From Limnohabitans sp. (GTDB taxonomy: Bacteria; Pseudomonadota; Gammaproteobacteria; Burkholderiales; Burkholderiaceae_C), in NCBI GenBank assembly GCA_021300495.1, contig JAJTDK010000003.1, positions 1 to 61,004 of the forward strand: DNA of 61,004 bases, given 5' to 3'. Within the stretch, counting starts at the first letter, position 1; each line of letters starts with the position of its first letter. Made by a program: the position numbers and the translations under genes. Of this stretch, positions 48,037-61,004 are shown in pieces. A model generated the notes under the pieces. That model did no database searches and was not told where the DNA came from. It saw nothing but the letters and a program-made list of their open reading frames with translations.

Positions 48037-48118
48037 TCTAAACAACGAGGCAAACACTCATTTGCCATCACCCGTTGAATGATCCAGCCGACCTGCCATT
48101 TCGTTGAAGGAAAACGCA

Positions 48119-50088
48119 ATGGCACACCATTTGCCAACCATAGCTTGCCACGCACTGTTGCTTGCGAGCGCTTCTGCGCTTGCTCAAAACAACACGGTGC
48201 TAATCACCAGCCCTGCTTCACAACAAGTCAGTGGTTTTGAAAACCTCAGCTTGCGTGAAGCGCCGTTCAGTGCCACCAACGTAGACAACGCCACACTGCG
48301 CGACTTAGGCGCACAAAGAATTTCAGAAGCCTTGCGCTTAGATTCTTCTGTGACCGACAGCTACAACTCTCCCGCTTATTGGGACATGTTGAGTGTGCGT
48401 GGCTTCATGTTAGACAACCGCTACAACTACCGCCGCGAAGGCTTGCCCATCAATGCAGAAACCATGATTGCCATGGACAACAAAGAACGCATTGAACTTT
48501 TTAAAGGCACCAGCGGTATACAAGCTGGCACCAGTGCGCCGGGTGGCATTGCCAACTACGTGGTGAAGCGTCCGCCCAACTCGATTGAAAGCAGCGTGAG
48601 AAGTCTCACATTGAGCTACGGCAACGGCAACAACAGTTCTGTCGCTTTGGATGTGGGCGGACGATATGGCGAAAACAACGCCTTTGGTTACCGTGTGAAC
48701 GCAGCCTATGAAAATCTGAATCCCTATGTGCAGAACGCAAAAGGCCATCGCCAACTGCTGGCATTGGCCATGGACTGGCGCATCAACGCCAATACCCGTC
48801 TTGAATGGGAAATTGAAACCAGCAGCCGCCAACAAATGGGTGTGAATGCGGCCAGTATGACGGGCAACACACTCCCCTCACCTGTTTACGGAAAAAACAA
48901 TTTCTCTAGACAAAGTTGGTCTGTGCCAGGTGTATTTGACGGACTGACTGGCAGCATACGCCTGAAGCACCGCTTAGACAACGGCTGGATGTGGACCACC
49001 CAAGTTGGCGCGCAGCGTTTGAAAACGGACGACCGTTTGAGCTACGCATACGGCTGTTATGCAGAAGGCAATTACGACCGCTTTTGTAGCGACAAAACAT
49101 TTGACCTGTACGACTACCGCAGCGAAAACGAACGAGCCTTTCTGGCCTTAGCGAAAGTGCCGCCGCACCTGAGCCTTATGACCTGAACACCAACCGCCAA
49201 GAGTACTCAACAGAAATCAGCGTGAAAGATCGCATTCGTGTCAATCGCTTGGCAGACTTGTGGCTTGGCCTTCGTTCAAGCCACATTCAACGCGACAGCC
49301 AACGCACCGACGGCAGCAGAGCCACACATGACGACCGAACCATCACAACGCCGTGGGTTGCTTTAAGCCACAAGCTGACTTACAACGCCACAGGCTATGC
49401 CAGCTATGGCCAAGGTGTTGAAGCTCAAGTGACACCCAACCGCAGCCGCTATACCAACGCTGGCGAGGCACTGCCATCTGCCAAGAGCACCCAAAAAGAA
49501 TTGGGCATCAAAGGTGCGCAAGGCCCATGGCTTTGGAACACCGCCTTGTTTGACATCACTCGCCCCGTTTGGGGAGACCAAGGTGCATGTGAGGAAGACA
49601 ACTCATGCACCCGCAAACTGGATGGCATTGCACAGCACAAAGGCCTAGAACTGGGTATGGGCTACCGCAGCCATCAATGGAAAATCGATACGGCTGCCAC
49701 ATGGTTAGATGCCAAGCGTTCACAGGCTTTGATTAACCCCGTTCAAAATGGTCAGCGCCCTTTAAACGTTCCTTCTTTGGTGCTTCGTGCTGCTGCGGAA
49801 TACCGCTGGACACAAGTACCCGGGTTGCGCACCACCTTGCGCTTAAGCCATGAAGGTGAACGCGACCTCATAGAAGGCGGCGCCATGAAATTGCCTGCGT
49901 GGACCACTGCCGATTTGGCGGCCCACTACAACACCAAAGTGGCTGGTCAAAACACCGACTGGACCTTGGCACTTGAGAACGCTAGCAACCGTGCTTATTG
50001 GAGAGAGTCGCCCAAGCAGTTTGGCCACTACTACTTGTATGCAGGAGCGCCCAGAAACTTGCGGCTTACAGTTCGAACGCTGTTCTAA
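48119..50088 (+). pseudogene. TonB-dependent outer-membrane receptor, disrupted; predicted thiamine-related uptake
   Basis: The first frame (48119-49186, 355 residues) has a signal peptide ending near ASALAQ, a plug domain (RISEALRLDSSVTDSYNSPAYWDMLSVRGFMLDNRYNYRREG) and the first beta-barrel part. It stops at 49186 after an out-of-register tail (LALAKVPPHLSLMT). The second frame, one base off, is open from about 49141 (SESAAAPEPYDLNTNRQEY) to 50088 and holds the rest of the barrel, ending in the terminal aromatic LF. By memory of relatives, roughly 50 residues after SENER are missing, so a deletion with frameshift is more likely than a simple base error. The TPP riboswitch points to thiamine or a precursor as ligand. 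Confidence 0.85.
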
Positions 50089-50102: not shown

Positions 50103-50369
50103 ATGAACGATTCATCACCCATTCAAGAGCAACCTGGAAACCCCCTTCATGGTTTGACCCTTGAGGCCATTGTTCGCGAGCTTGAAGCGTATTTTGGTTG
50201 GGTGGAACTTGGCGAACGCATACCGGTGCGGTGCTTTACTCACGACCCAAGCCTCAACTCCAGCTTGAAGTTTTTGCGCAAAACCCCTTGGGCCAGAGAA
50301 AAAGTAGAAGGGCTGTATTTGTTTATGTTGCGAGAGAAACGGCGCAGTCAGGGTGCATCTTCGTCATGA
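50103..50369 (+). CDS. VF530 family (DUF2132) small DNA-binding-like protein
   Basis: The 88-residue protein has the family core [33 protein letters not shown] and [23 protein letters not shown]530 proteins are annotated as putative DNA-binding proteins from a structure, but the function is unknown. It follows the receptor remnant by 14 bases, and its stop directly abuts the convergent MFS gene end. Confidence 0.9.
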
Positions 50370-51647
50370 CTACGCCCTTCTCCAGAAACTAAGCGCAGCC
50401 AACACAATGGCTATGCCAGCCGCCCAAGGCAGAAGCCCAATCGTGCCCGCCCAAATTGCTTCAGTCTTTGAAGCCCCCCGAGATAAGGCCTGGTTTTGCA
50501 GCAACTCCATCAACCAAAGCCAGATCAAGGCGGCAGCCACAATGCCGACGGTACGGGTCACCAGCGTTAGACTGCCAGACAGACCCCGCGCAGAATCTGA
50601 CAAAGTGGCCACCACTTTATCGGCGTAGACAACCTGAAACACCCCCAAGCCCAAACCTTGGAGCAACAGGGCCAATGCCATCAAGGGCCAGGCTTGGGCC
50701 ATTGATAACGCGCCTATCAAGGCCAACCCTAAGGCCATAAGCCCTTGTGCCAAGTTGCCTACGGCCTGTAGATTCATGTGCCGCAACAGCAAAGGGGCAA
50801 CGCCCGAGCCACCCAACACACCCAGTGCCCACAAGGACAACATGGCACCACTGGCTATTTCAGGCCACCCAGCCGCAGGCAAGGCATACGGCAAGCTCAG
50901 GGCAATGGTGAAACTACAGAACTGAACGACCACACTTTCTAAGTTGATCCAGGCGAAATTAGCATTGCGCCGCATGAGCAGCAAAAGACCTTGTACGCTG
51001 CCCGGTTGAGTGGCGTCGGGTGTGCTTAGCTTCTGCACACGCAGGCGACTGGACAGCCAAGGGGTGCACAACAAAGCCAGCAGCACAATAGGAACCCTAA
51101 AACCGTAAACCCCGGCCCAGCCCCAATACAACATGCTGATACCCCCGAGCAATGGCGCCATCAAACCAGCCGCCGCAATCATGGCACCGTAAGCCGACAG
51201 CGCCAAAGTGCGATGCTCGAACGCCAACAAAGACATGGCCAAAGCTGGCGCACATGACAAAGTTAGCGCCACTCCGATACCTTGCAACACCCTTCCAGCC
51301 AACAGCCAGCCATAAGCAGGAGACAGCGCACACGCAGCCATTCCCAGCGCAGATATAAACAAGCCCCAGCGAAACACGCGCAGGTGGCCTAAGCGGTCTC
51401 CAAGCGCACCGCAATACAACATGAGGCTGCCATAAGTGATGACATAGAACACAGCCACCCAACGTATGTCAGCTGTTGACAAAGCAAAGGCTTCGGTCAT
51501 TGCGGGAAAAGCCAAGTTAACCGCAAAGTCAAGTGGTGCAATGGAAGCACCGAGGCCAACGATGGCAAAACCCAGATAAGGCTTACCAATGCGGGCGTCA
51601 ATTTGCTTGTCAAGTGGACGAGTCAAAACTAGAGATTTCCTAAACAA
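50370..51647 (-). CDS. MFS transporter (drug/solute efflux type)
   Basis: Inner-membrane major facilitator of 425 residues with about 12-14 hydrophobic helices. The loop motif GALGDRLGHLRVFRWG between helices 2 and 3 is the MFS signature A, and RVLQGIGVALTLSCAPAL resembles DHA2/DHA1 efflux families. The substrate is not predictable. The start is uncertain: TTG 51647 with AGGAAAT close upstream, or the in-frame TTG 51626 with a second AGGAAAT. It is the last gene of the native chromosome before the tRNA-Asn element. Confidence 0.82.
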   Translation of the reverse strand: MFRKSLVLTRPLDKQIDARIGKPYLGFAIVGLGASIAPLDFAVNLAFPAMTEAFALSTADIRWVAVFYVITYGSLMLYCGALGDRLGHLRVFRWGLFISALGMAACALSPAYGWLLAGRVLQGIGVALTLSCAPALAMSLLAFEHRTLALSAYGAMIAAAGLMAPLLGGISMLYWGWAGVYGFRVPIVLLALLCTPWLSSRLRVQKLSTPDATQPGSVQGLLLLMRRNANFAWINLESVVVQFCSFTIALSLPYALPAAGWPEIASGAMLSLWALGVLGGSGVAPLLLRHMNLQAVGNLAQGLMALGLALIGALSMAQAWPLMALALLLQGLGLGVFQVVYADKVVATLSDSARGLSGSLTLVTRTVGIVAAALIWLWLMELLQNQALSRGASKTEAIWAGTIGLLPWAAGIAIVLAALSFWRRA

Positions 51648-51840
51648 ATTTCCTAGGCATGAACTCCATAGGAGCCATCACAACTAGGAGCTCATGGAGC
51701 CTGAACTCTTATTAAACCTGAATCCAGTCGCCTGCCAGCTAATGGCGTTTGAACTATGGCTGTTCTTGAACTTCAGTAACAGCACAGAGCAACACAAGTG
51801 CACAAAACTCTTTAGCCCTCAAATAGCTGCATTTTTTTGC

Positions 51841-51846
51841 TACAAT
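51841..51846 (+). promoter_or_regulatory. -10 element of the tRNA-Asn promoter, left copy
   Basis: TACAAT followed by GCGAGGCTTAGCG, a G+C-rich discriminator typical of stable-RNA promoters. No strong -35 is visible. A near-identical copy lies at 60713-60718 before the complete tRNA-Asn. The gap 51648-51927 otherwise shows no gene. Confidence 0.6.
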
Positions 51847-51909
51847 GCGAGGCTTAGCGAAATAGCGCAGTTGCTTAGTCCTAAAGACTGGTCAAATTTG
51901 TGTATTTTT

Positions 51910-51968
51910 TGCTAACAAACCGAATATTCCTCGATAGCTCAGTCGGTAGAGCGCCGGACTGTTAATCC
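51910..51968 (+). repeat. attL: 59-bp direct repeat, left copy
   Basis: Identical over 59 bases to 60784-60842. It covers the last 18 bases of the tRNA leader and the first 41 bases of tRNA-Asn, ending just 3' of the anticodon loop (GTTAATCC). Imperfect similarity continues upstream to about 51811. This is the crossover core of the integrated element. Confidence 0.9.
51928..51968 (+). pseudogene. Truncated tRNA-Asn (5' half only)
   Basis: The first 41 bases of tRNA-Asn(GTT): acceptor 5' strand TCCTCGA, D arm, and anticodon arm with GTT. It then departs into unrelated sequence at 51969. It keeps its promoter and is followed by a terminator, so it is probably transcribed but cannot be a tRNA. 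The complete gene is at 60802. Confidence 0.92.
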
Positions 51969-51973
51969 ACATT

Positions 51974-52008
51974 AAAGCCTTTTCAAGAAAATTGAAGAGG
52001 CTTTTTTT
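51974..52008 (+). terminator. Terminator directly after the truncated tRNA-Asn
   Basis: AAAGCCTTTTCAA (51974-51986) pairs with TTGAAGAGGCTTT (51992-52004), one G-T pair in 13, then a T tract. It would end a short transcript containing the tRNA 5' half. Confidence 0.85.
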
Positions 52009-52053
52009 CGTTTAAAAACAATAGTTTATAGAAATTTAATGATGTAATATCTC

Positions 52054-52072
52054 AATTACACATATATTACAC
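52054..52072. repeat. Paired motif AATTACAC-N4-ATTACAC, left copy
   Basis: Starts 86 bases after the crossover base 51968. The same paired motif starts 86 bases after 60842, at 60928-60946. It may be an arm-type recombinase site. The surrounding 51969-52447 holds no gene and is rich in ATTAAT words, as integrase arm regions often are. Confidence 0.5.
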
Positions 52073-52111
52073 ATTTTTATTTACAGGTCGCTTGAATTAA
52101 TCATTAATTTA

Positions 52112-52321
52112 CTCTGGACGCTTTGAATTTTATTCATTAATCTGATTTTTAATATAATCAAAAAATTGACTATTAATTAATAGGATTAAATCTCTTTTCG
52201 GTATTAATTTTTACACCGAAATTAATCGAAATATAGATTAATTTTTAATGCGGCAAGTGCTCTGAACGCCCCACTACCGTCCAGCTCTGGACACCCCACT
52301 ACCGTCCAGACTCTGGACGCT
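52112..52321. repeat. Palindrome cluster at the left end of the element
   Basis: CTCTGGACGCT (52112-52122), then two units with CCCCACTACCGTCCAG at 52269-52284 and 52294-52309 (25-base period), each followed by CTCTGGAC. The second contains the perfect palindrome CGTCCAGACTCTGGACG (52303-52319). The 22 bases 52300-52321 recur identically at 60499-60520. Confidence 0.75.
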
Positions 52322-52447
52322 CACGTTGCTTGCCGCAAGTCCTTCCAATGCATCGGGATACCAAATCGCGGTTGCCCAAGCATGCGGTCTGAAACTAAAT
52401 TTGTGTCACAAGAACTCATTGCTGCGATTGCTTAGGCTCAGCAACTT

Positions 52448-53488
52448 TTGAACAAACACATGACACATGAAATTCAAATTGCTCACAGCACCTATCTGAG
52501 CACTCAGATCAAAAAACGCATTTCAGTTGGCGGTATCGATGTTGACGAAGACTTCGTTAAAGAACTACTGATTAAACATTTGAGAACGGGAGATGCAAAT
52601 GACCGCCCCACTCTCTCAGACGCTTTTGACATCTACATGGCAGAGAACACATCCGCACACCGCAGAAAGTTCAAACTCAATGCCAATCAATACTTCAACA
52701 GGTTTAGCGCCATGTATGGGGATCTTTACCTTGATGAGCTTAAGCACTGGCACATCACCCAATATCGAGACGCCATGCTGGCGCAGGGACTGCATCCAAA
52801 CAGCATCCGCAAACACAACAACATCCTGAATGCCATGATCAATATGGCATTCAAGCACTTGGACATTGACAGGCTCAGTCCCTTCAGGGGACTACAGATA
52901 CGTGGCGAGGGTGAAAACACAAGACCGATACCACCCATCACGCCAGAGAAGATTGCCAAGGTCAAAAGCTTCTTGATCCGTCACAACACCCCAGCCAGCT
53001 TGGTGGGACTGATACAACTCAACACTGGTCTTAGGATTTCTGAGCCCACTCTGGCAAGGCTAGAAGACTTGGTGCTTGAACATGAGATTCCGCATCTTTG
53101 GGTACGAAAGAACCGACTGACAGATCGAAAAACCAAAGCCAGCATTCGAGCTGTGCCACTCGTTGGCGTATCACTGGATGCAGCTAAAGAGTTACAAGCT
53201 AGAGCATTACGGCTCAACTCCCCCTGGCTACTGCCTCAATACGCGAAGGAGTTTGGAGCTTGCTCTTGTTCAGCCATCTTGAACAAAAACTTGCGCCCCT
53301 TTGAGTTTCGCAGTCACATGTTTAGGCATGCATTCATCGACAGACTCAAAGCGCGAAATGACATTCCACTGCCTTTGGCCGAAAGCATTACGGGACATGG
53401 ACGCGGGCAAACTGATTTTGCTGTTTATGGCAGCGTTGGCTACACGCTCGAGCAAAAGCTACAGGTCATTCAAAAGATTGAGATTTAA
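52448..53488 (+). CDS. Tyrosine recombinase / site-specific integrase
   Basis: The 346-residue recombinase probably drives integration of this element into tRNA-Asn. All catalytic residues are visible: Arg196 (NTGLRISEP), Lys230, His290-x-x-Arg293 (HMFRHAF), His317 (TGHGRG) and the nucleophile Tyr327 (AVYG). An N-terminal SAM-like core-binding domain spans about 55-145. The start may be TTG 52448 or ATG 52460; neither has a strong ribosome site. It is transcribed away from attL toward the cargo, and a terminator follows. No excisionase gene was recognised. Confidence 0.92.
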   Translation: MNKHMTHEIQIAHSTYLSTQIKKRISVGGIDVDEDFVKELLIKHLRTGDANDRPTLSDAFDIYMAENTSAHRRKFKLNANQYFNRFSAMYGDLYLDELKHWHITQYRDAMLAQGLHPNSIRKHNNILNAMINMAFKHLDIDRLSPFRGLQIRGEGENTRPIPPITPEKIAKVKSFLIRHNTPASLVGLIQLNTGLRISEPTLARLEDLVLEHEIPHLWVRKNRLTDRKTKASIRAVPLVGVSLDAAKELQARALRLNSPWLLPQYAKEFGACSCSAILNKNLRPFEFRSHMFRHAFIDRLKARNDIPLPLAESITGHGRGQTDFAVYGSVGYTLEQKLQVIQKIEI

Positions 53489-53551
53489 TTTCTAATTCAT
53501 CCTGGGGCACGGGCTATCTCGTGCCTTGCTCCGGATACGGCCACTAGATAC

Positions 53552-53587
53552 ACCCCACAGTTTCGCAAGAGGGTTGTGGGGTTTTTC
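53552..53587 (+). terminator. Terminator after the integrase gene
   Basis: ACCCCACA (53552-53559) pairs with TGTGGGGT (53575-53582), then TTTTC. A second small hairpin GGCACG/CGTGCC (53506-53525) precedes it. Confidence 0.75.
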
Positions 53588-53827
53588 TTTGCTAGCACAC
53601 ACCCGCACACTCTTCGTACTCCTTTGCTGCTGGCATTGACTTGCGGCGCTGCGAAACTGTGCTGAAAAAAGCAGCAAAGCTGCAGCAGTTGGCAAAGCCT
53701 TGTGCGCGGGTATGAAACAGTCGCAGCTCAGCTACCCCACACTGGCAATGGCTCAGCAAAGCTGCCCACAGCGACGTTGGAAACGACTTACAACGGACCC
53801 TCAACCGCAGCCGCCCGTGCCCATACG

Positions 53828-53917
53828 CTGAGAGACGGTGAGTTGGTGCTGTACAAGCGCAGCCACAGTCGAGTTTGACCATGCCGCTACAAGCTCTACG
53901 ACAACCAGTGGTGTTGA
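53828..53917 (+). pseudogene. Possible remnant of a second integrase N terminus
   Basis: The frame from 53828 reads LRDGELVLYKRSHSRV, a stop, then CRYKLYDNQWC. From memory this resembles the N-terminal segment of some Burkholderiales phage-type integrases (LxDGELxLYKRxHSxxWQxRYKL). No longer homologous stretch could be followed. The gap 53588-54113 contains no other recognisable gene, which suggests decayed mobile DNA. Confidence 0.3.
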
Positions 53918-54088
53918 CGCCGCAGATTAACGACAAGCAACCGAGTGTTCCTCTGCTGGCCTAAAAAGTGATCCGTACGTGAAGGCTACCTCTTGCCGAT
54001 ATTGCCGTGCGGCGAGGCGTCGACTGGCACGGTCACGTGAAAAAAAATAATGTAAATGTCATTCTGGTTAATACCTAGCTATTTTTTG

Positions 54089-54101
54089 AGACGACTGGTC
54101 T
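54089..54101. promoter_or_regulatory. Candidate TetR operator
   Basis: AGACGACTGGTCT has inverted ends AGAC/GTCT and sits 12 bases before the tetR start, in an AT-rich promoter-like stretch. The symmetry is short, so this is tentative autoregulation. Confidence 0.3.
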
Positions 54102-54113
54102 ATTATTAAATAC

Positions 54114-54752
54114 ATGAACTCACAGTCGCTTGTCGCTCCTAAACGAATCAGCCGCACTGAGCGCGCAGCTGCACGCACCAGCACAAGGGAAATGTTGGTG
54201 CGTTGCGGCACGGAAATCTTCACTGAGAGAGGCTTTCAGGCGACCGGCATAGACGAGATCCGCCTGCGGGTAAATGTGCCTAAAGGTTCGTTCTATCATT
54301 TCTTCTCCAGCAAACACGAGTTCGGACTTGCTGTGATAGACAACTACGCCGCGTATTTCGAACGCAAGCTAGCTCGATCTTTCGACGACACACAGTTGAT
54401 GCCGCTTGAGCGTATCTCTGCCTTCGCCAACGACGCCATGCGTGGCATGGCCAAATTTAATTTTCAGCGGGGCTGCTTGATCGGCAATCTTGGGCAGGAA
54501 CTTGGCGGCCTGAACGATGAGTTCCGCGACAAGCTGGAAGCCGTGCTGCAGGCTTGGCAATCGCGAACTGCGAGTTGCCTGAGCGACGCCGTGCGGACCG
54601 GGCAATTGTCCGTCAGTGCGGACTGCGAGGCGCTTGCCGAGTTTTTCTGGATCGGATGGGAGGGTGCCATTCTGCGCGCCAAGCTCACGCGTAACAACAA
54701 TCCGTTAGAGCGCTTTCTCGCCCATTTCATGCTCACGGCGCGAGCCGCCTGA
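54114..54752 (+). CDS. TetR/AcrR family transcriptional regulator
   Basis: The 212-residue regulator has the helix-turn-helix at about 25-70 (EMLVRCGTEIFTERGFQATGIDEIRLRVNVPKGSFYHFFSSKHEFGLAVIDNY), and a TetR_C-like ligand domain (RGCLIGNLGQELGGLNDEFRDKLEAVLQAW), the form seen in AcuR/NemR-like repressors. It lies 32 bases before the acuI-like gene and in the same direction, so it probably controls the cargo operon and itself. AcuR is the known repressor of acuI in some proteobacteria, but the ligand here is not established. Confidence 0.9.
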   Translation: MNSQSLVAPKRISRTERAAARTSTREMLVRCGTEIFTERGFQATGIDEIRLRVNVPKGSFYHFFSSKHEFGLAVIDNYAAYFERKLARSFDDTQLMPLERISAFANDAMRGMAKFNFQRGCLIGNLGQELGGLNDEFRDKLEAVLQAWQSRTASCLSDAVRTGQLSVSADCEALAEFFWIGWEGAILRAKLTRNNNPLERFLAHFMLTARAA

Positions 54753-54784
54753 GCTATTTACTTAAATTTTTTGGAGCACTTCCT

Positions 54785-55762
54785 TTGAAGGCAATCTGGC
54801 TCGAGCAATCCGATGGAAAGACCCACGCGGCGCTTAAAGACATTCCCGAGTCAGTCTTGGACGAGGGCGACACTCTGGTGAGCGTGGAGTGGTCGTCCCT
54901 CAACTACAAAGACGGCTTGGCCATCACAGGCAAGTCGCCCATCGTGCGTAAGTTCCCGATGATCCCGGGAATAGACCTTGCAGGTACCGTTAAGTCGTGT
55001 AGCAGCGGCGCCTGGCTACCAGGCGATCGTGTTGCGCTCACGGGATGGGGATACGGCGAAAACGCATTCGGCGGTCTCGCGCAGATGGCCCGCGTGAACG
55101 GTGACAAATTGGTGCGCCTGCCAGAATCAATGGAGACGCGGACGGCAATGGCCATAGGCACGGCCGGTTTTACGGCGATGCTGTCGGTGATGGCGCTAGA
55201 ACGCAACGGCGTCTCCCCCGACAGGGGTGAAGTACTCGTTACCGGCTCAGGCGGAGGCGTGGGAGGCTTTGCGGTCGCCTTGTTGGCCAAGCGCGGCTAC
55301 AAGGTGGTGGCGGTTACAGGGCGTGCGGCTGAAGGTGAACGCCTATTGCGTCTTGGCGCTGCTGAAATCATGGACCGCGATGCGTTTTCGCAGCCCGGCA
55401 AACCACTTACAAAAGAGCGCTGGGCCGGCGTGGTAGACAGCGTCGGCAGCCACACGCTAGTGAACGCCTGCGCCAGCACGCGCTACGGCGGCACAGTCGC
55501 GGCCAGTGGTTTAGCGCAAGGCATGGATTTCCCCGCATCGGTAGCACCTTTTATCCTGCGCGGTGTCACGCTCGCGGGCATTGACAGCGTGTCCTTTCCG
55601 ATGTCCAGCCGCGGCGCAGTGTGGCAAGGGCTCGCGCAAGACCTTTCGCCCGATGCGATTATGAACATGGCCGTGTCGTTGCCGCTCGAAGACGTTATCA
55701 CGCGCGCGCATGACCTTCTCGCCGGCACGGTGAGCGGCCGACTCGTGGTAGACCTTCGATGA
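54785..55762 (+). CDS. acuI: AcuI/YhdH-type NADPH-dependent acryloyl-CoA reductase
   Basis: Medium-chain reductase of 325 residues without zinc ligands. The family signature is clear: VEWSSLNYKDGLAITGKSPIVRKFPMIPGIDLAGTV, the NADP motif VTGSGGGVGGFAVALLAKRGYKVVAVTGR, and ILRGVTLAGIDSVSFP. AcuI reduces toxic acryloyl-CoA to propionyl-CoA. Here it heads a CoA-ester cassette and may reduce an analogous unsaturated acyl-CoA. The start is TTG 54785 with GGAG ten bases upstream. The next gene follows within about 20 bases. Confidence 0.88.
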   Translation: MKAIWLEQSDGKTHAALKDIPESVLDEGDTLVSVEWSSLNYKDGLAITGKSPIVRKFPMIPGIDLAGTVKSCSSGAWLPGDRVALTGWGYGENAFGGLAQMARVNGDKLVRLPESMETRTAMAIGTAGFTAMLSVMALERNGVSPDRGEVLVTGSGGGVGGFAVALLAKRGYKVVAVTGRAAEGERLLRLGAAEIMDRDAFSQPGKPLTKERWAGVVDSVGSHTLVNACASTRYGGTVAASGLAQGMDFPASVAPFILRGVTLAGIDSVSFPMSSRGAVWQGLAQDLSPDAIMNMAVSLPLEDVITRAHDLLAGTVSGRLVVDLR

Positions 55763-55783
55763 ACATTGATCCTTAATGAATTC

Positions 55784-57322
55784 ATGTACGCAACCCTGAT
55801 CAGTGGAGACCGCACCCTAGATGGCGGAACTTTGGAACAGCGGGTTCTGCGCGTGGCGGGCGGCTTAATGAGCCTGGGCCTTGGGCCCGGCGACGTCGTT
55901 AGCATCCTGATGCGCAACGATTTCCCATTGCTGGAAGTGACGCTCGCGGCAGACAGGACAGGCGCTGTCGCAGTGCCGCTCAACTGGCACGCTAGTGCAG
56001 AAGAAATAGGCTTCATCCTGCAGGATTCTCAGGCGCGGCTGCTGGTCGTGCATGCCGATCTGCTAAAGAAAGTGGCATCTGTGGTGCCCGCAAATTGCAA
56101 GGTTCTGGAGGCTGTGACGCCGCCCGAAATCCAGATTGCCTATCGCCTGACTGAAGAATCCTGTTCACTCGCCGGTAACGCCATGAACTACGAAAACTGG
56201 GTGCAGGCATCAGAAGTTTCAACTGCTGCGCCGGTCTCAACTCCTTTTCGTCTTCTCTACACGTCCGGTACGACGGGTCGTCCGAAAGGCGTCAGGCGCT
56301 TGAGCAGCTCTCCCGAAATGACTGCGAGGTTCGGTCAGCGCGTTAGGCTGGCGCACGGCCAGGAGATCCGGCCAATCCGCGCCGTGATGACGGGGCCGCT
56401 CTACCACTCTGCGCCGAATGTTTACGCGCTCAACTGCGTCCGCTTTGGCGACTTGCTGGTGTTGCAGCCGAAGTTCGATGCCCAAAGACTGCTTGATCTG
56501 GTCGAACGCTATCGACTTAGCCACATGCACATGGTGCCAACCATGTTCAGTCGTTTGCTCGACTTGCCCGAAGAGCAAAAGGCAGCCTTTGACACTTCGA
56601 CGCTGAAAGCTGTTGTGCATGGTGCGGCGATGTGCCCTCGCGACGTCAAACAGGCCATGATTGATTGGTGGGGACCTGTGATCATGGAGTACTACGCCGC
56701 CACTGAGATCGGAATCATCACCGCGAGTACCTCGCAGCAATGGTTGGCGCATCCTGGCACCGTGGGTTCGCCGCCGGAAGGCGTGCAGATCGCGATTGTC
56801 GATGACCAGGGCCTACCAGTGCCGACGGGCGACATTGGCGAGGTGTTCATCCAATCCGACATGGCCGACCTAGTGATTTATCACAATCGACCTGAAGCGA
56901 TGGCTGAGTTGCGTCGAGGCGACTGGTTGACGATGGGCGACATCGGCCATGTCGATGCGGACGGCTTTCTCTGGATAAGCGATCGCAAGAAAGACATGGT
57001 GATCTCCGGTGGCGTAAACATCTTCCCGGCGGAACTTGAAGAAGCGGCGCTGCAATTGCCACAGGTGCGCGACTGCGTCGCCTTCGGCATACCGGATCGG
57101 GACCTTGGTGAAGCCTTGGCGATGGTCTTTGAGCCGCATGCAGGCGCACAGATCGAGCCGGACGAAATGCGCGAAGCGCTCAGGGCCAAGCTGGGAAGGT
57201 TGCGCGCGCCCAAGGTATTGCTTAGTATGCCTTTGCTACCGCGCGAAGATAGCGGCAAGATAGCGCGCCGCAAGCTCAAGCAGCAGTACCTCGATAGCCT
57301 TATTCATCCCGCTACGAAGTGA
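55784..57322 (+). CDS. Acyl-CoA synthetase (AMP-forming, class I adenylate-forming)
   Basis: Activates a carboxylic acid with ATP and CoA. About 512 residues from ATG 55784 (518 if TTG 55766 is used). Motifs in order: P-loop YTSGTTGRPKGV, EYYAATE, GDWLTMGDIGHVDADGFLWISDRKKDMVISGGVNIFPAELE and the C-terminal catalytic lysine in REDSGKIARRKLK. It resembles bile-acid/steroid- or medium-chain-acid CoA ligases of actinobacteria and proteobacteria; the substrate is unknown. Its stop overlaps the GTG start of the thiolase gene. Confidence 0.9.
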   Translation: MYATLISGDRTLDGGTLEQRVLRVAGGLMSLGLGPGDVVSILMRNDFPLLEVTLAADRTGAVAVPLNWHASAEEIGFILQDSQARLLVVHADLLKKVASVVPANCKVLEAVTPPEIQIAYRLTEESCSLAGNAMNYENWVQASEVSTAAPVSTPFRLLYTSGTTGRPKGVRRLSSSPEMTARFGQRVRLAHGQEIRPIRAVMTGPLYHSAPNVYALNCVRFGDLLVLQPKFDAQRLLDLVERYRLSHMHMVPTMFSRLLDLPEEQKAAFDTSTLKAVVHGAAMCPRDVKQAMIDWWGPVIMEYYAATEIGIITASTSQQWLAHPGTVGSPPEGVQIAIVDDQGLPVPTGDIGEVFIQSDMADLVIYHNRPEAMAELRRGDWLTMGDIGHVDADGFLWISDRKKDMVISGGVNIFPAELEEAALQLPQVRDCVAFGIPDRDLGEALAMVFEPHAGAQIEPDEMREALRAKLGRLRAPKVLLSMPLLPREDSGKIARRKLKQQYLDSLIHPATK

Positions 57323-58494
57323 ACAAGATGCTAACTTCCGACATCGTCATCAGTGGCTACGCCGAAACTCGAAACGTGTTCCGTTCGGGCCGAAGTGCTT
57401 ATGACCTGGCTGCGGATGTATTGGACGAAATCGTGCGCAAATACAGCATCGTGCCGGCGGACATCGACGGGCTGGCGGTGACGGCGGCGCTCAGCGAAGG
57501 CAGCAATCCCTTTCACGCTGCTTACCTGTCCGACACGTTAGGTTTGCAACTCGACTGGCTGGGCACCGGCACTACCGGAGGCTGCGCGATGCTTTGCGCG
57601 GTCTCGGCGGCCGCTTCGGCGCTGCGCGACGGGCGCTGTAAAGTGGCGCTGGTGATTGGTGCCGATGCGCCCAGCACCACATATTCGAGCCACTATCGCG
57701 CTTACCGCGAGGAATTCCAGGTGCCGACGGGCCTGATTCGCCCACCGGCGGCGTTCGCCTTGGTGCAAAACGCCTACGAACAGCGTTATGGCGCTCCTGA
57801 TGCTGCGCTGGCAAAGATTGTGGTCACGCAGCGCGAGCATGCGCTGCAAAACGCGCGAGCCTGCGACAAGCTGCGAAAGGCGCTCACCCTGGATGACTAC
57901 CTGGACTCACGCAAGGTGTCCGATCCGCTTCGCCTGCTGGACAGCGTGATGTTCTGCGACGGTGCCAACGGTGTGCTGATGATGCGGGCCGAAACGGCGG
58001 ACGCGATGGGGCTACCTAAGTCGGTGCGGCTGGCCGGCTATGCCGAGCGCACCAACCATAATGTTCAGGATCAGACGCCAGACCTGCTCGACTCGGGCTT
58101 CAAGGTGGCCGGGGTCCGCGCGCTAGCGCAAGCCGAGCTTTCCGTGAACCAAGTAGACATGCTGCAGCTTTACGACGACTTTACCATTGCAGTGCTGATA
58201 CAACTGGAGCATATGGGTTTTTGCGGCCCGGGAGAAGGCGCCTCGTTCATCGGCAAGACCGATTTTCGGTTCAGCGGCGATCTGCCGCTGAACACAGGTG
58301 GGGGGCAACTATCGGCCGGCCAGCCGGGCCTGGCCGCGGGCGGCCTGAACCTGGTGGAGGCTGTGCGCCAGCTGTTTGGCGAAGGCGGCGCGACGCAGGT
58401 CAACAGTCCGCGCAACGCGCTGGTTACCGGCATCGGTGGCATCGCCTATGGCCGTGGCTGGATGATGAGCAACGCCCTGGTGCTGGACTTATGA
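57319..58494 (+). CDS. Thiolase-fold protein, Ltp2/SCPx-like; possible retro-aldolase
   Basis: The 391-residue thiolase-superfamily protein (GTG start overlapping the ligase stop; ATG 57328 is an alternative). It has GTGTTGGCAMLCAVSAAASALR at the region of the nucleophile, LQLYDDFTIAVLIQLE around Tyr285, and NTGGGQLSAGQPG, where the usual GHP histidine motif is GQP (Gln335). The C-terminal Cys-x-Gly is replaced by VTGIGG. These changes match the Ltp2 group, which pairs with DUF35 proteins and acts as a retro-aldolase in steroid side-chain loss rather than as a thiolase. The adjacent DUF35-like gene supports that reading, but the reaction is inferred. Confidence 0.82.
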   Translation: MNKMLTSDIVISGYAETRNVFRSGRSAYDLAADVLDEIVRKYSIVPADIDGLAVTAALSEGSNPFHAAYLSDTLGLQLDWLGTGTTGGCAMLCAVSAAASALRDGRCKVALVIGADAPSTTYSSHYRAYREEFQVPTGLIRPPAAFALVQNAYEQRYGAPDAALAKIVVTQREHALQNARACDKLRKALTLDDYLDSRKVSDPLRLLDSVMFCDGANGVLMMRAETADAMGLPKSVRLAGYAERTNHNVQDQTPDLLDSGFKVAGVRALAQAELSVNQVDMLQLYDDFTIAVLIQLEHMGFCGPGEGASFIGKTDFRFSGDLPLNTGGGQLSAGQPGLAAGGLNLVEAVRQLFGEGGATQVNSPRNALVTGIGGIAYGRGWMMSNALVLDL

Positions 58495-58922
58495 GCGAGC
58501 TTCAAAAGTCAAGGCTTGGCTTGGCCATCGGCCAGTACATGAACACGTTGCCTTTCTGGGAAGCAACGCGCGAGCAGCGTTTACTGATGCAGTTCTGCAC
58601 GCAGTCACAGCGATGGCAGGCGTATCCGCGGCCCGGCAGTGTCTACACTGGACGCCGGCAACTGGAATGGCGGGAAGTCAGCGGTAAGGGTGTGGTGGCG
58701 AGCTGGACGGTTGACCGGATGAACACACTCACCGCAGGCCCGGTAAGCCGCATTCATGCGCTGGTCGATCTAGCGGAAGGAGTTAGGTTGCTGAGCTGGC
58801 TCGTCGAGTGCGAACCGGCGCAACTGCGCACCGGCCTGCCCGTTCGCGTCGAGTGGGTCGCGCTCGGAGAAGGTTTGCAGTGGCCCGCCTTCACTTCCCT
58901 CAAAACGGTTATCAATAAATAA
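58491..58922 (+). CDS. DUF35 / OB-fold protein with degenerate zinc ribbon
   Basis: The 143-residue protein starts at ATG 58491 in ATGA overlap with the thiolase stop. The N-terminal part (LPFWEATREQRLLMQFCTQSQRWQAYPRP) is the DUF35 rubredoxin-like region, but only one of the four expected cysteines remains. The OB-fold follows (GRRQLEWREVSGKGVVASWTVDRM ... LPVRVEWV). Partners of this family bind CoA esters and form complexes with Ltp2-like aldolases. The assignment rests on context and partial motif match. Confidence 0.75.
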   Translation: MSELQKSRLGLAIGQYMNTLPFWEATREQRLLMQFCTQSQRWQAYPRPGSVYTGRRQLEWREVSGKGVVASWTVDRMNTLTAGPVSRIHALVDLAEGVRLLSWLVECEPAQLRTGLPVRVEWVALGEGLQWPAFTSLKTVINK

Positions 58923-58938
58923 GGCGCTTCAGCGCAAC

Positions 58939-58980
58939 AGGGGCAAACATGAAATTAACTCAAGGGGCAAACATGAAATT
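58939..58980 (+). repeat. Tandem duplication of a ribosome site and start codon
   Basis: AGGGGCAAACATGAAATT occurs at 58939-58956 and again at 58963-58980, a 24-base period. Both ATGs are in frame with the binding-protein gene. Confidence 0.9.
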
Positions 58981-59944
58981 CACATTCAACACATTTCGTT
59001 CTGTGGCATTTGCCACCATCCTCGCATTCACCGGCACGGCCTTCGCGCAATCCGGCAAACCTTTGAAGATCGTGATCGGAACGCCGGCCGGCGCGTCGAT
59101 GGACACTTTGACCCGCTTAATAGCGGAGAAGATCAAGGTCACGCTGAACCGGCCTGTCGTCGTTGAGAACAAAGCTGGAGCGGCTGGCCGAATTGCAGCG
59201 GAAGCTGTGAAGGCTGCGCCGGCCGATGGCAGTACGGTCTGGATCACGGCCTCTGCCAATGTGGTCGCACAGCCGCTGGCCTATAGCAACCTCAAGTACG
59301 ACCCGTTCAAGGACTTCGTGCCTGTTTCCCAACTCGCCAGCTTTCAAATGGCGCTGGCCGTGCCAGCCAGTTCAGGCGTCAACAGCGTGGGCGACTACCT
59401 GGCCAACGCAAAGAAGAACCCGTCCAATGCGATGTACGCTTCACCGTCTGCCGGCAGCTTGCTTCATTTCCTTGGAGTGATGCTGAGCAATGAGTCGCAG
59501 ATACCTTTGACGCACGTGCCTTATCAGGGCACTGCAAAGATACTACCTGATTTAATCGGCGGACAGGTGCCGGGAGCGTTTCTCGTGATCGCCGACACCG
59601 TGCAATACCATCGCAGTGGCAAGCTGAAGGTTTTGGCAGTGAGCGGCGAACAACGTTCGCAGTATTTGCCAGAAGTTCCCACCTTCAAGGAATTGGGTCT
59701 GAACGTAGTAGGCACTGCCTGGTTCGCGGCCTATGCGCCGGCCGACACGCCGCAACCGGTGGTAGATGCGATTAGTAAGGCCATGGCCGAAGCAATTACC
59801 ACTCCGGATCTACAAGAAAAGCTCAAGGGAATGGGGCTTGACCCAATCGGCAATTCATCGCGCGAATTGGGCCTGGCGCACCGTTCCGAATATATCAAGC
59901 TCGGCCCAGTTATCAAGGCTTCCGGCTTCAAGGGCGAAAATTGA
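58973..59944 (+). CDS. Tripartite tricarboxylate transporter (Bug/TctC) substrate-binding protein
   Basis: Periplasmic binding protein of 323 residues from ATG 58973 (331 from 58949). The signal peptide (FRSVAFATILAFTGTAFAQS) fits the second start best. Family motifs: IVIGTPAGASMDTLTRLIAEKI, PVVVENKAGAAGRIAAEAV, and VPYQGTAKILPDLIGGQV. Bug proteins bind carboxylates and are highly expanded in Burkholderiales. The TctA/TctB membrane genes are absent from the element, so it either uses a host transporter or acts as a sensor. It is the last cargo gene. Confidence 0.92.
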   Translation: MKFTFNTFRSVAFATILAFTGTAFAQSGKPLKIVIGTPAGASMDTLTRLIAEKIKVTLNRPVVVENKAGAAGRIAAEAVKAAPADGSTVWITASANVVAQPLAYSNLKYDPFKDFVPVSQLASFQMALAVPASSGVNSVGDYLANAKKNPSNAMYASPSAGSLLHFLGVMLSNESQIPLTHVPYQGTAKILPDLIGGQVPGAFLVIADTVQYHRSGKLKVLAVSGEQRSQYLPEVPTFKELGLNVVGTAWFAAYAPADTPQPVVDAISKAMAEAITTPDLQEKLKGMGLDPIGNSSRELGLAHRSEYIKLGPVIKASGFKGEN

Positions 59945-60051
59945 CGAGTTATCACCCCCGGCTCAGTCTTGACGCTGTATGTCGTAGCCGAATTCCTCAA
60001 ATGCCGAATTAATCACGACTACATCGTCGGTATTTCTGCGATCGTGACCGA

Positions 60052-60082
60052 TTGCGCAGCGTGCAAAAGTTACGCTGCGCAA
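60052..60082. repeat. Strong inverted repeat in the gene-free right part of the element
   Basis: TTGCGCAGCGT (60052-60062) and ACGCTGCGCAA (60072-60082) are perfect 11-base arms around a 9-base loop, without a T tract. The gap 59945-60801 contains no gene I can recognise; open frames on the minus strand show no family resemblance. Confidence 0.7.
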
Positions 60083-60483
60083 ATTGTAGGGTGAAAGGCC
60101 AGACAAGCCCGGTAGCCGTGCTCGAGTTGTTGACATGTCTGCAGAATTCGAGCCACAAGAGCAGCGGTGCCGCTCCAATTTCCTGGTCCTCATGCATCAT
60201 TCGCTCAAGTCTAAATTGCAGGTAGGCGCAGTGGGAGGCTGACTGTTTTTTTTGACACATTGGTAAGAACGCCCTTTTGGTCGCAGCACATCCGGCTGCA
60301 CCAAACGCTGACAGCAATGAAGCATCTCTACCCTGCGCTGTGTACCCAGTAGCCAAGTTTGAATAAACGCTCACGGATCGTCAGCACAGCCTCTTTGCTA
60401 ACCGAAAGCCATTCTCTTAAATCCCAAGCAAGACATTAATGCAATCAACTCGAACAGGAGCACGTTCTGACTTGCCACCTACA

Positions 60484-60564
60484 CGTCCAGAGCACCCGTA
60501 CCGTCCAGACTCTGGACGCTCTGATACCGGCCAGAGCAACGCAAGCGTCAAGAATCTGGACGCC
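60484..60564. repeat. Palindrome cluster at the right end of the element
   Basis: Copies of the unit seen at the left end: CGTCCAGA (60484-60491), the perfect palindrome CGTCCAGACTCTGGACG (60502-60518), ACCGGCCAGAGC (60526-60537) and TCTGGACGCCC (60554-60564). The 22 bases 60499-60520 equal 52300-52321. Confidence 0.75.
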
Positions 60565-60712
60565 CTGCTTGGTTCTAATTGCGTTGTGTTTTAGCTTGCA
60601 ACATGATCAAAGCAAATCGATCCACCGAGGCATGTTTCCCGAGTGAAACCACGCCTCAACGACCCAGTGCCAACAAATCCGTTTAGCCCTCGAAAAGCAG
60701 CATTTTTTTTGC

Positions 60713-60718
60713 TACAAT
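60713..60718 (+). promoter_or_regulatory. -10 element of the tRNA-Asn promoter, right (element-borne) copy
   Basis: TACAAT followed by GCGAGGCTTAGCGAA, as in the left copy. The stretch from 60682 to the tRNA aligns with 51811-51927 with scattered differences, so it is a homologous but diverged promoter. Confidence 0.6.
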
Positions 60719-60783
60719 GCGAGGCTTAGCGAATTTCACAGACGCTCTAAGTCCTAAAGACTCTGAATTTCTGTGTACTTTTC

Positions 60784-60842
60784 TGCTAACAAACCGAATA
60801 TTCCTCGATAGCTCAGTCGGTAGAGCGCCGGACTGTTAATCC
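60784..60842 (+). repeat. attR: 59-bp direct repeat, right copy
   Basis: Identical to 51910-51968. The repeat ends at base 41 of tRNA-Asn, after which this copy continues into the authentic 3' half. Confidence 0.9.
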
Positions 60843-60877
60843 GTAGGTCCCTGGTTCGAGCCCAGGTCGAGGAGCCA
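60802..60877 (+). tRNA. tRNA-Asn (GTT anticodon), complete
   Basis: Seventy-six bases: acceptor TCCTCGA/TCGAGGA, D arm GCTC/GAGC, anticodon loop CTGTTAA, T arm CTGG-TTCGAGC-CCAG, and an encoded CCA. Its first 41 bases and promoter lie inside the element, and the last 35 bases belong to the right flank. Confidence 0.97.
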
Positions 60878-60890
60878 AAACCCCTTTAAA

Positions 60891-60920
60891 AACAACGACT
60901 TAAATCGTTGTTTTTATTTG
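60891..60920 (+). terminator. Terminator after tRNA-Asn
   Basis: AACAACGA and TCGTTGTT form a stem with loop CTTAAA, flanked by A and T tracts. It ends the tRNA-Asn transcript. Confidence 0.8.
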
Positions 60921-60927
60921 ATTTATT

Positions 60928-60946
60928 AATTACACGGTTATTACAC
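60928..60946. repeat. Paired motif AATTACAC-N4-ATTACAC, right copy
   Basis: Starts 86 bases after the crossover base 60842, the same offset as the left copy. The remaining bases to 61004 show no gene. Confidence 0.5.
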
Positions 60947-61004
60947 GAATAATTAATCTGCCGCTGGTTGATTTTTCCCAAAAGTCGTTGTAAAGTGCTG
61001 ACAT

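Follow-up and report, generated by a model that had tools for sequence, protein, structure and literature searches.

What becomes of a tRNA gene when a mobile element rebuilds it from the 5′ side? On the usual view, a tRNA gene that hosts an element keeps its own promoter, "with very few exceptions" in the words of PMC8371274, and Table 1 of the Islander study lists a 5′ tDNA fragment in 159 of 3919 islands and a 3′ fragment in 3760 (PMC4383910). These counts agree with the premise of a sequence-only reading of the locus studied here, namely that most tRNA-integrating elements restore the 3′ end; restoration from the 5′ side is rare but has already been described. The locus lies at the right end of the window, by which we mean the entire 61,004-nt stretch of DNA from a freshwater Limnohabitans sp. 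that was analysed (all features on the plus strand). The window genome (G000; relatives are given as G001 and so on) is a 132-contig draft, 86% complete, and its contig ends 127 bp past the tRNA.

The window contains a perfect direct repeat of 59 bp (51,910–51,968 and 60,784–60,842, followed by A and G, respectively), exact to the base as first reported. A 64-bp block containing a single mismatch encloses it, and the promoter is covered by another repeat block (51,832–51,861 and 60,704–60,733; 30/30 identical). ARAGORN identified one tRNA-Asn(GTT) in the window, a complete gene at 60,802–60,877 that is the only one found in the genome and whose first 41 nt (60,802–60,842) come from an 8.9-kb element. 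The left copy (51,928–51,968) is identical to these 41 nt and represents a displaced 5′ fragment, so that the earlier description of a truncated left end and a complete right gene with a second promoter and leader was accurate. The fragment ends in the attL core CTGTTAATCC (51,959–51,968), which is the overlap seen in relatives between 5′ fragments, ending at tRNA position 41, and 3′ fragments, most of which begin at position 32. Its first bases form the 7-nt anticodon loop (51,959–51,965). In G084 and G082 the displaced tRNA-Asn copy diverges immediately past this loop, which narrows the crossover from the core to the loop itself (CTGTTAA, tRNA positions 32–38), rather than just past it as previously proposed. 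The length of the repeat and the recurrence of the layout exclude chance: 5′ fragment, element and complete gene follow one another in G001 (5 contigs, NZ_NERY01000002.1), where two elements stand in tandem, and in G006 (1 contig), and in G009 and G076 the left arm seen in the window likewise comes after a 5′ fragment.

Each tRNA copy has its own promoter and leader, at 51,811–51,927 and, with the extended −10 TGCTACAAT, at 60,673–60,801. The sequence-only reading had noted differences between TACAAT and the core, and the two leaders indeed share 79.4% identity (68/88 when the count runs from TACAAT up to the tRNA). The tRNA-Asn gene is undivided in G104, where the MFS gene known from the window precedes it at an equal distance (281 bp). 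Its leader matches the left copy at 79/87 positions (90.8%) and the right copy at 63/89 (70.8%); the right promoter is therefore the element's and the left one native. The left-type leader on the complete G104 gene likewise upholds the proposal that the element supplies promoter and 5′ half. In the leader tree, the left promoter groups with the G104 and G009 copies (support 0.986) and the right one with copies from G001, G098 and G073 (support 0.949), and no arm repeats lie upstream of the native promoter. The element leader is identical (97/97) in the window and the intact gene of G001 (Limnohabitans sp. MMS-10A-178), with native leaders only 90.5% alike; the right promoter does come from another lineage, as first suggested. 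Between the same two genomes, integrase DNA is 92.5–93.6% identical and left-flank stretches 80–83%, compared with 100% for the element leader. Some copies are discordant: the native leader of G001 falls outside the native group of G000, G104 and G009, and the main element group does not include the element-borne copies from G006, G067 and G076. In G098, a promoter nearly identical to the element's is separated from the arm repeats by ~3 kb, and G073 has an element-type promoter and arm with no recognisable 5′ fragment. A search of 398 family genomes with a TACAAT leader gave matches in three (G000, G076 and G245), that in G245 being 22 nt long and beside tRNA-Arg and tRNA-Ser genes.

Directly 3′ of the left core, the element carries a putative intrinsic terminator (51,974–52,004; 13-bp stem, U tail). 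The hairpin forms in 5/5 left ends folded, and fragment plus hairpin reach z values of −2.5 to −3.5. At +96 from the core lies an ATTACAC-N4-ATTACAC pair (52,055–52,072), a putative integrase arm site; the window has two such pairs against 0.00 expected (100 shuffles). With one mismatch allowed, the pair recurs at 95–97 in seven of the eight rows that carry the 5′-fragment label; a contig end truncates the remaining one. GTCCAGA/TCTGGACG repeats mark the left (52,109–52,324) and right arms (60,474–60,567), and all four exact copies of TCTGGACGC in the window fall within these two arms (0/100 shuffles reach four). Among the 18 TACAAT promoters listed, eight have at least three arm matches upstream and the other ten have none or one. 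The core and an ATTACAC pair, at +95 to +97 or at −78, are common to elements of either polarity; the −78 pair is absent, for no evident reason, at two 3′ fragments (G073 C12:2015 and G058). A further, doubtful 3′ fragment at G073 C36 (L118:12033) has many mismatches. No ATTACAC pair was found within 1500 bp of ten more distant integrase relatives (G011:C23, G086, G057, G018, G047, G017, G049, G054, G007 and G288). In the set examined alongside such relatives, 2 of 20 loci held a tRNA.

The tyrosine integrase gene (52,448–53,488; 346 aa, frame open) starts 480 bp right of the 5′ fragment, compared with 444–455 bp for three further copies. Its product matches PF00589 above the cut-off and phrog_1 integrase (2e-34), and is 97, 97 and 86% identical to three same-position copies in G001 and G006. 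Residues R196, H290, R293, H317 and Y327, read in the sequence, make up what we take to be the catalytic pattern. Plasmid and phage searches returned only relatives of ≤34% identity (three records each), and no PDB sequence matched at E ≤ 0.01. In G076 and G009 the left arm is present and the 346-aa integrase absent.

The cargo comprises an AcuR-type TetR regulator (54,114–54,752; NF051457, 273.9 bits, cut-off 247), the acrylyl-CoA reductase AcuI (54,785–55,762; NF051456, 476.6 bits, cut-off 440), an acyl-CoA synthetase (55,766–57,322; PF00501; NF009071, 740 bits, cut-off 701), a thiolase-like/lipid-transfer protein (57,319–58,494; PF22691; the 25 NCBIfam matches shown all lie under their cut-offs), an OB-fold (ChsH2 C-terminal) protein (58,482–58,922; PF01796) and a TctC substrate-binding receptor (58,949–59,944; PF03401). 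As judged from these families, the set resembles one for acrylate use. Of the nine element ORFs scanned with Pfam, seven fall into integrase, regulator, enzyme or receptor families and two are without a match; with no structural or transfer genes among the nine, a prophage or a conjugative element (ICE) was rejected. The interval encloses a tyrosine integrase gene, the direct repeat overlaps the tRNA integration sublocation (ending in the anticodon loop/stem), the 5′ fragment lies upstream of the regenerated gene in the same orientation, and a relative, G104, has an uninterrupted site. The element is thus a tyrosine-integrase genomic island of the rare 5′-restoring kind, and we are confident that it was integrated by a family targeting the tRNA-Asn anticodon loop. 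The ordinary 3′-restoring reading was rejected for the 8.9-kb element.

G104 is an empty site for this element, though not a full-flank match. The expectation that relatives would join the two sides of the crossover directly is borne out for the left flank and through the tRNA gene itself. Beyond the tRNA, the G104 right flank has no match to the window. This flank has an imperfect ATTACAC pair at +148 and may hold a mobile arm itself. The VF530 gene, located between TonB and MFS in the window, is absent in G104.

The window's own right flank (60,878–61,004) is the probable left arm of a second, ordinary 3′-restoring element, inside which the contig ends, and the 3′ half of the tRNA (60,843–60,877) probably derives from the same source. 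The stretch 60,843–61,004 is 94–95% identical to G011 and G023, which carry the other promoter class and have a different integrase further on (461 aa long in G011; truncated by the contig end in G023). Related arms with a G011-type integrase recur in G045, G084 and, displaced, G001. The second ATTACAC pair (60,929–60,946) again lies at exactly +96, and the stretch is absent beside the G104 gene. These observations make it unlikely that 60,843–61,004 belongs to the host proper, with foreign origin confined to the 5′ half, a reading favoured by the mere 127 bp beyond the tRNA, with no integrase there; the remainder of this element did not turn up in the window genome's assembly. The tRNA-Asn gene is thus probably a chimera of two mobile elements. 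The host's dependence on element DNA, as first claimed, stands for promoter and 5′ half; since the 3′ half and right flank probably belong to a second element, it is larger than that claim held, and mobile DNA may now make up most of the essential tRNA-Asn gene. In G000, G001 and G006, the gene remade with the element promoter is the only complete tRNA-Asn found.

The right promoter could also have moved by homologous recombination between tandem islands instead of through the window integrase, the island being a dead relic. Arrays with several homologous arms are RecA substrates, and the rearranged ends in G098 and G073 would fit. We nevertheless give this little credence, slightly less than the host-DNA reading of the right flank, because the integrase frame is open and encodes the catalytic residues expected, arms lie at both ends, and G104 has the site without the 8.9-kb element. 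An ancient tandem duplication of the native promoter and tRNA-Asn unit, with the 3′ half of the first copy lost and genes inserted between, would account for the clear homology of both promoters, and another family does show neighbouring tRNA-Asn-like matches (two in G027, for instance). It is highly improbable and was rejected: G104 contradicts it with a single copy behind the same MFS gene, the loci examined truncate at the anticodon loop beside the same left arm, often with the integrase and with differing cargo, and G000 and G001 resemble each other more closely in their element promoters than in their native ones. A misjoin of two contigs through the 59-bp repeat, conceivable in a draft whose window ends so soon after the tRNA, was rejected as just as improbable, the layout being repeated in G001 and G006.

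Integration by the element's own integrase, the reading we prefer, would proceed as follows. Left of the crossover, attP would contain arm repeats, tRNA promoter, leader and tRNA 5′ half; right of it, the terminator, the ATTACAC-pair arm site and the integrase. Recombination would cut the host tRNA-Asn in the anticodon loop. The original promoter and 5′ half would end up 8.9 kb upstream, and there the terminator of the element is predicted to halt the orphan transcript, while tRNA-Asn would be remade with, and presumably expressed from, the element's promoter and 5′ half. Elements that restore the 3′ end also enter this site, and they have the same core and ATTACAC arm geometry. With these stacking downstream and 5′-restoring ones upstream, the intact gene stays mid-array as a chimera; in G001, the array order is two 5′ fragments, the intact gene and two 3′ fragments. 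The window's 3′ half and right flank most likely belong to a 3′-restoring element already. Cassettes with arms and no integrase were presumably moved in trans.

Several known systems share parts of this arrangement. The 5′-fragment islands of Islander are likewise tyrosine-integrase islands in a tRNA gene, with the intact gene at one end and a 5′ fragment upstream, and anticodon-centred sites form one of the two site classes (PMC4383910). Mixed-polarity arrays at one gene, integrase-less members and promoter-class replacement across relatives are not part of the Islander account drawn on here, and the method requires an integrase in each island (PMC4383910). For pTN3-type integrases of Thermococcales, the remade tRNA is described as expressed from the element's side, but the system is archaeal, the integrase promoter drives the tRNA and the integrase gene is split (PMC8371274). 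The window element instead has an unsplit integrase, and the promoter and leader it brings are of tRNA type. The additive flexible island fGI-2 of Methylopumilus is similar in being a variable island of freshwater bacteria that adjoins tRNA-end repeats, but it differs in its tRNA (tRNA-Lys) and, as described, mostly unknown genes (PMC10872708). Its 20-bp repeat is described as the last 20 nt of the tRNA-Lys gene (PMC10872708); reverse-complemented, the printed repeat reads to us like a tRNA 5′ end with D-arm, for which reason fGI-2 may be a second, unrecognised 5′-polar array. In dusA-associated islands, island DNA replaces the 5′ end of the target gene, which is a protein gene, and the integrase family is described separately (PMC4482086). 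In the tRNA-dependent lysogeny reported for mycobacteriophages, the host's essential tRNA also depends on element DNA, but there a complete additional tRNA gene is supplied by the phage, and the host's own remains disrupted (PMC10865867). By comparison with an integron, the units of the tRNA-Asn arrays each terminate in the promoter and 5′ half of a tRNA. In the way it works, the element may be likened to the tycheposons of Prochlorococcus, which are tRNA-anchored, with a tyrosine recombinase and metabolic cargo.

Promoter, 5′ half and 3′ half of tRNA-Asn may all have been repeatedly exchanged by opposite-polarity elements sharing core and arm geometry, which would make it a two-sided docking gene, and the TACAAT "native" promoter of the window's clade may itself be the domesticated relic of an older 5′-restoring element. 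We consider this possible, at somewhat below even chances. The idea of a relic arises because the other genus members examined mostly use CTATAAT, and two mini-elements among them (G084 and G082) import TACAAT, displacing the native CTATAAT-class promoter. No decayed tRNA 5′ fragment was found between TonB and the tRNA at eight TACAAT-clade loci (within 19 mismatches of 40), so domestication is without that trace. A TACAAT-type leader was also seen in another genus (G228), with a decayed integrase 3′ of its tRNA-Asn.

If tRNA-Asn is such a docking gene, the cell would be maintaining an essential gene pieced together from mobile parts, and the elements would set its expression. One 5′-restoring family replaces the tRNA-Asn promoter and leader in several species, and a second family replaces the other half. 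The locus is a tangible system in which to ask whether an essential tRNA can be tuned by mobile DNA, how the polarity of integration switches inside a single attachment system, and how small catabolic operons come to be stacked at one gene in freshwater bacteria.

The element is bounded by the 59-bp perfect repeat first noted (51910–51968 and 60784–60842), and its left and right copies share a promoter block in which 30 of 30 bases are identical. The left copy stops after nucleotide 41 of tRNA-Asn (fragment 51928–51968), and the right copy continues into a complete gene (60802–60877), as also described in the sequence-only reading. Between the repeats lie a tyrosine integrase of 346 aa (int346), starting 480 bp beyond the left fragment, together with cargo comprising AcuR, AcuI, an acyl-CoA synthetase, a thiolase-like protein, an OB-fold protein and TctC. 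AcuR and AcuI pass their NCBIfam cut-offs, which makes acrylate use a fair guess at the cargo's role. Scanning nine ORFs of the element gave no phage or conjugation families, and two of these ORFs had no match at all. Directly after the left core (the anticodon-loop region, CTGTTAA) stands a hairpin with a 13-bp stem and a U tail, present in all five left ends folded; we infer that this predicted terminator protects the element's own genes against the orphaned promoter of the tRNA.

Close integrase copies occur in three of 90 genus genomes: the window's own (G000), Limnohabitans sp. MMS-10A-178 (G001, twice) and the single-contig genome G006, where a 5′ fragment and the complete gene lie 8.3 kb apart. 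Contig C2 of G001 reads, along the tRNA strand, 5′ fragment, 8-kb element, 5′ fragment, 21-kb element, complete gene and two 3′ fragments. The left arm was found at eight places in five of the 90 genomes. Among matches listed to E 1e-9, recognisable tRNA-Asn 5′ fragments number eight in six genomes (G000, G001 twice, G006, G009 twice, G076, G084), leaving out two at contig edges (G009:C117, G004:C33); 3′ fragments number 25 in 20 genomes, leaving out four found by an edge check that covers a minority of contigs. One 5′ fragment outside this E-value listing, in G082, was found by reading. That most tRNA-integrating elements restore the 3′ end thus holds among these 90 genomes too, the 5′ kind being the minority (8 vs 25 fragments).

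Cargo is different in each element. The TctC receptor is common to G000, G006, the 8-kb element of G001 and a 3′-restoring cassette of G003, and was not among six proteins scanned from the 21-kb element of G001. In G076, the left arm is followed by 16 kb of genes, then by the right arm and, where the contig stops, a portion of the promoter; the gene names, as read from the translations, include LysR, indolepyruvate-oxidoreductase-like, TRAP- and ABC-transporter and ring-hydroxylating-oxygenase proteins. Neither this element nor the 3.4 kb of G009:C210, which also carries the left arm, yielded int346, and we label such left-arm elements putative non-autonomous cassettes.

The proposal that the right promoter stems from another lineage was borne out by comparison with relatives. 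G104 has the order TonB receptor, MFS gene, 281 bp and complete tRNA-Asn. The window keeps this MFS gene and 281-bp spacing, with an additional VF530 gene between TonB and MFS that is absent in G104. The G104 leader matches the window's left copy at 79/87 positions vs 63/89 for the right copy, and the right leader is identical (97/97) to the leader of G001's intact gene, against 90.5% identity between the native leaders of these two species. Integrase DNA of G000 and G001 is 92.5–93.6% identical, against 80–83% for stretches of the left flank. A tree of 18 leader copies united the element copies of G000, G001 (two), G098 and G073 (support 0.949) and, separately, the G000 left copy with G104 and G009 (two; support 0.986); neither group included the native copy of G001 or the copies borne by the elements of G006, G067 and G076. 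Taken together, these leader comparisons and the tree indicate that, in one well-supported lineage at least, the element carries the promoter along with it. The G098 element-promoter leader is 99% identical to the window's; at this locus (L117, 3692–6997), about 3 kb with a 737-aa ORF separates the arm repeats from the element promoter.

On the right side, positions 60843–61004 share 94–95% identity with G011 and G023, two genomes in which the tRNA is followed by another integrase (461 aa in G011). This type also occurs in G045 and G084 and, after a displaced 3′ fragment, in G001. The tRNA-Asn of the window is thus probably chimeric, with the promoter and 5′ half of one element and the 3′ half of another. 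The same arrangement is seen in G080 and G084; in G098, 47 bases match the window's right side before the contig ends. No second tRNA-Asn was found in the window's 86%-complete assembly, the next best match being tRNA-Lys, in agreement with the earlier view that the host's only local tRNA-Asn would rely on element DNA. Full pairing along the acceptor stem is seen in 42 of 43 complete-gene entries, a list that may include a gene twice if two loci cut it differently; halves of different origin thus stay compatible. Pair 6:67 is G-C in 31 entries and A-T in 12; G082 has a displaced fragment of the A6 type and a current gene with G6-C67.

The 61-kb window has four copies of the motif TCTGGACGC, two per element arm, a number reached in 0 of 100 shuffles. 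ATTACAC-N4/5-ATTACAC occurs twice in the window, with none expected, and both occurrences lie 96 bp to the right of where a core starts. In 42 oriented loci, with one mismatch allowed, this pair stands at +95 to +97 in seven of eight rows labelled 5′ fragment (the eighth is cut by a contig end) and also in G084 and G082. Five intact genes (window, G011, G023, G045, G084) have it at +96, with another integrase following in the latter four, and G080 has it there too. The pair stands at −78 in eight of 13 rows labelled 3′ fragment; the other five comprise two at contig starts, one doubtful fragment, G073 C12:2015 and G058. GTCCAGA repeats left of the core also occur in 3′-restoring cassettes of G003 and G009. 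Given these features in both polarities, 5′- and 3′-restoring elements look like one attachment system. Crossover had been placed just past the anticodon loop; we place it within the loop instead, since 5′ fragments of the window's family end at tRNA position 41, most 3′ fragments start at 32, and the G084 and G082 copies diverge after the loop.

In another genus (G196, L087), a relative of the integrase lies between two 224-bp repeats (222 and 2583); these contain CTGTTAA cores and the ATTACAC pair, and a tRNA-Asn 3′ half comes after the second. This is perhaps a 2.4-kb element of integrase only. In L089 (G014:C5; 2880–3004 and 7008–7085), a decayed relative stands close to tRNA-Leu(CAA), and a 79-bp repeat is found some 4 kb away, making this tRNA a possible second target of the family.

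Islands restoring the 5′ end are as such already known, and were reportedly treated by Zhao and Williams in 2002 (cited in PMC6563490). They make up 159 of 3919 islands in Islander (PMC4383910), and archaeal pTN3-type integrases are also 5′-restoring; the paper on these describes a similar situation as seldom encountered in bacteria (PMC8371274). An additive island at tRNA-Lys has a 20-nt repeat named as the last 20 nt of the gene (PMC10872708); reverse-complemented, it resembles a tRNA 5′ end, and from these letters the island may be another 5′-polar array. The literature searched, which covered few subscription journals, contained no account of one tRNA gene shared by elements of opposite polarity, or of a tRNA gene built of two elements' halves.

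In the left neighbourhood, the window's TonB-dependent receptor is split into a Plug and a beta-barrel piece that occupy different frames (48104–50088); 15 other loci have both domains in one frame at wider spacing, so a small internal deletion seems to have broken the window copy. A VF530-family gene follows (50103–50369), found between TonB and tRNA-Asn in six of 42 loci, only in the TACAAT-promoter clade, with the order TonB-VF530-tRNA in G003, G012 and G045. The MFS transporter gene before the tRNA promoter (50370–51647) otherwise occurs only in G104 among the 42 loci.

The fetched loci, which include a few from other genera, gave 53 distinct sequences upstream of a tRNA-Asn 5′ half: 30 belong to a short CTATAAT class (one mismatch allowed), 17 have TACAAT and six match neither in full. 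The leader of the 17 TACAAT sequences ends in AACCGAATATT. In seven CTATAAT-class loci with a recognised TonB, the tRNA starts 81–84 bp after it (one, G004, is cut by a contig end within the tRNA). In G048, G072, G051 and G055 (L101, L110, L111, L115), tRNA-Asn copies have a different upstream sequence, TTCTACGACGTTTTCTTTTCG, and a second complete tRNA-Asn match is listed in each genome. The displaced fragments of G084 and G082 are of the CTATAAT type (CTATAAT and CTATAGT), and their intact genes, 709 and 1307 bp further, resemble the window's clade in having the TACAAT promoter and a leader that ends in AACCGAATATT. Judged from these sequences, G084 and G082 show the promoter class replaced at one locus, which suggests that the window's clade may have gained its native TACAAT promoter by such a replacement.
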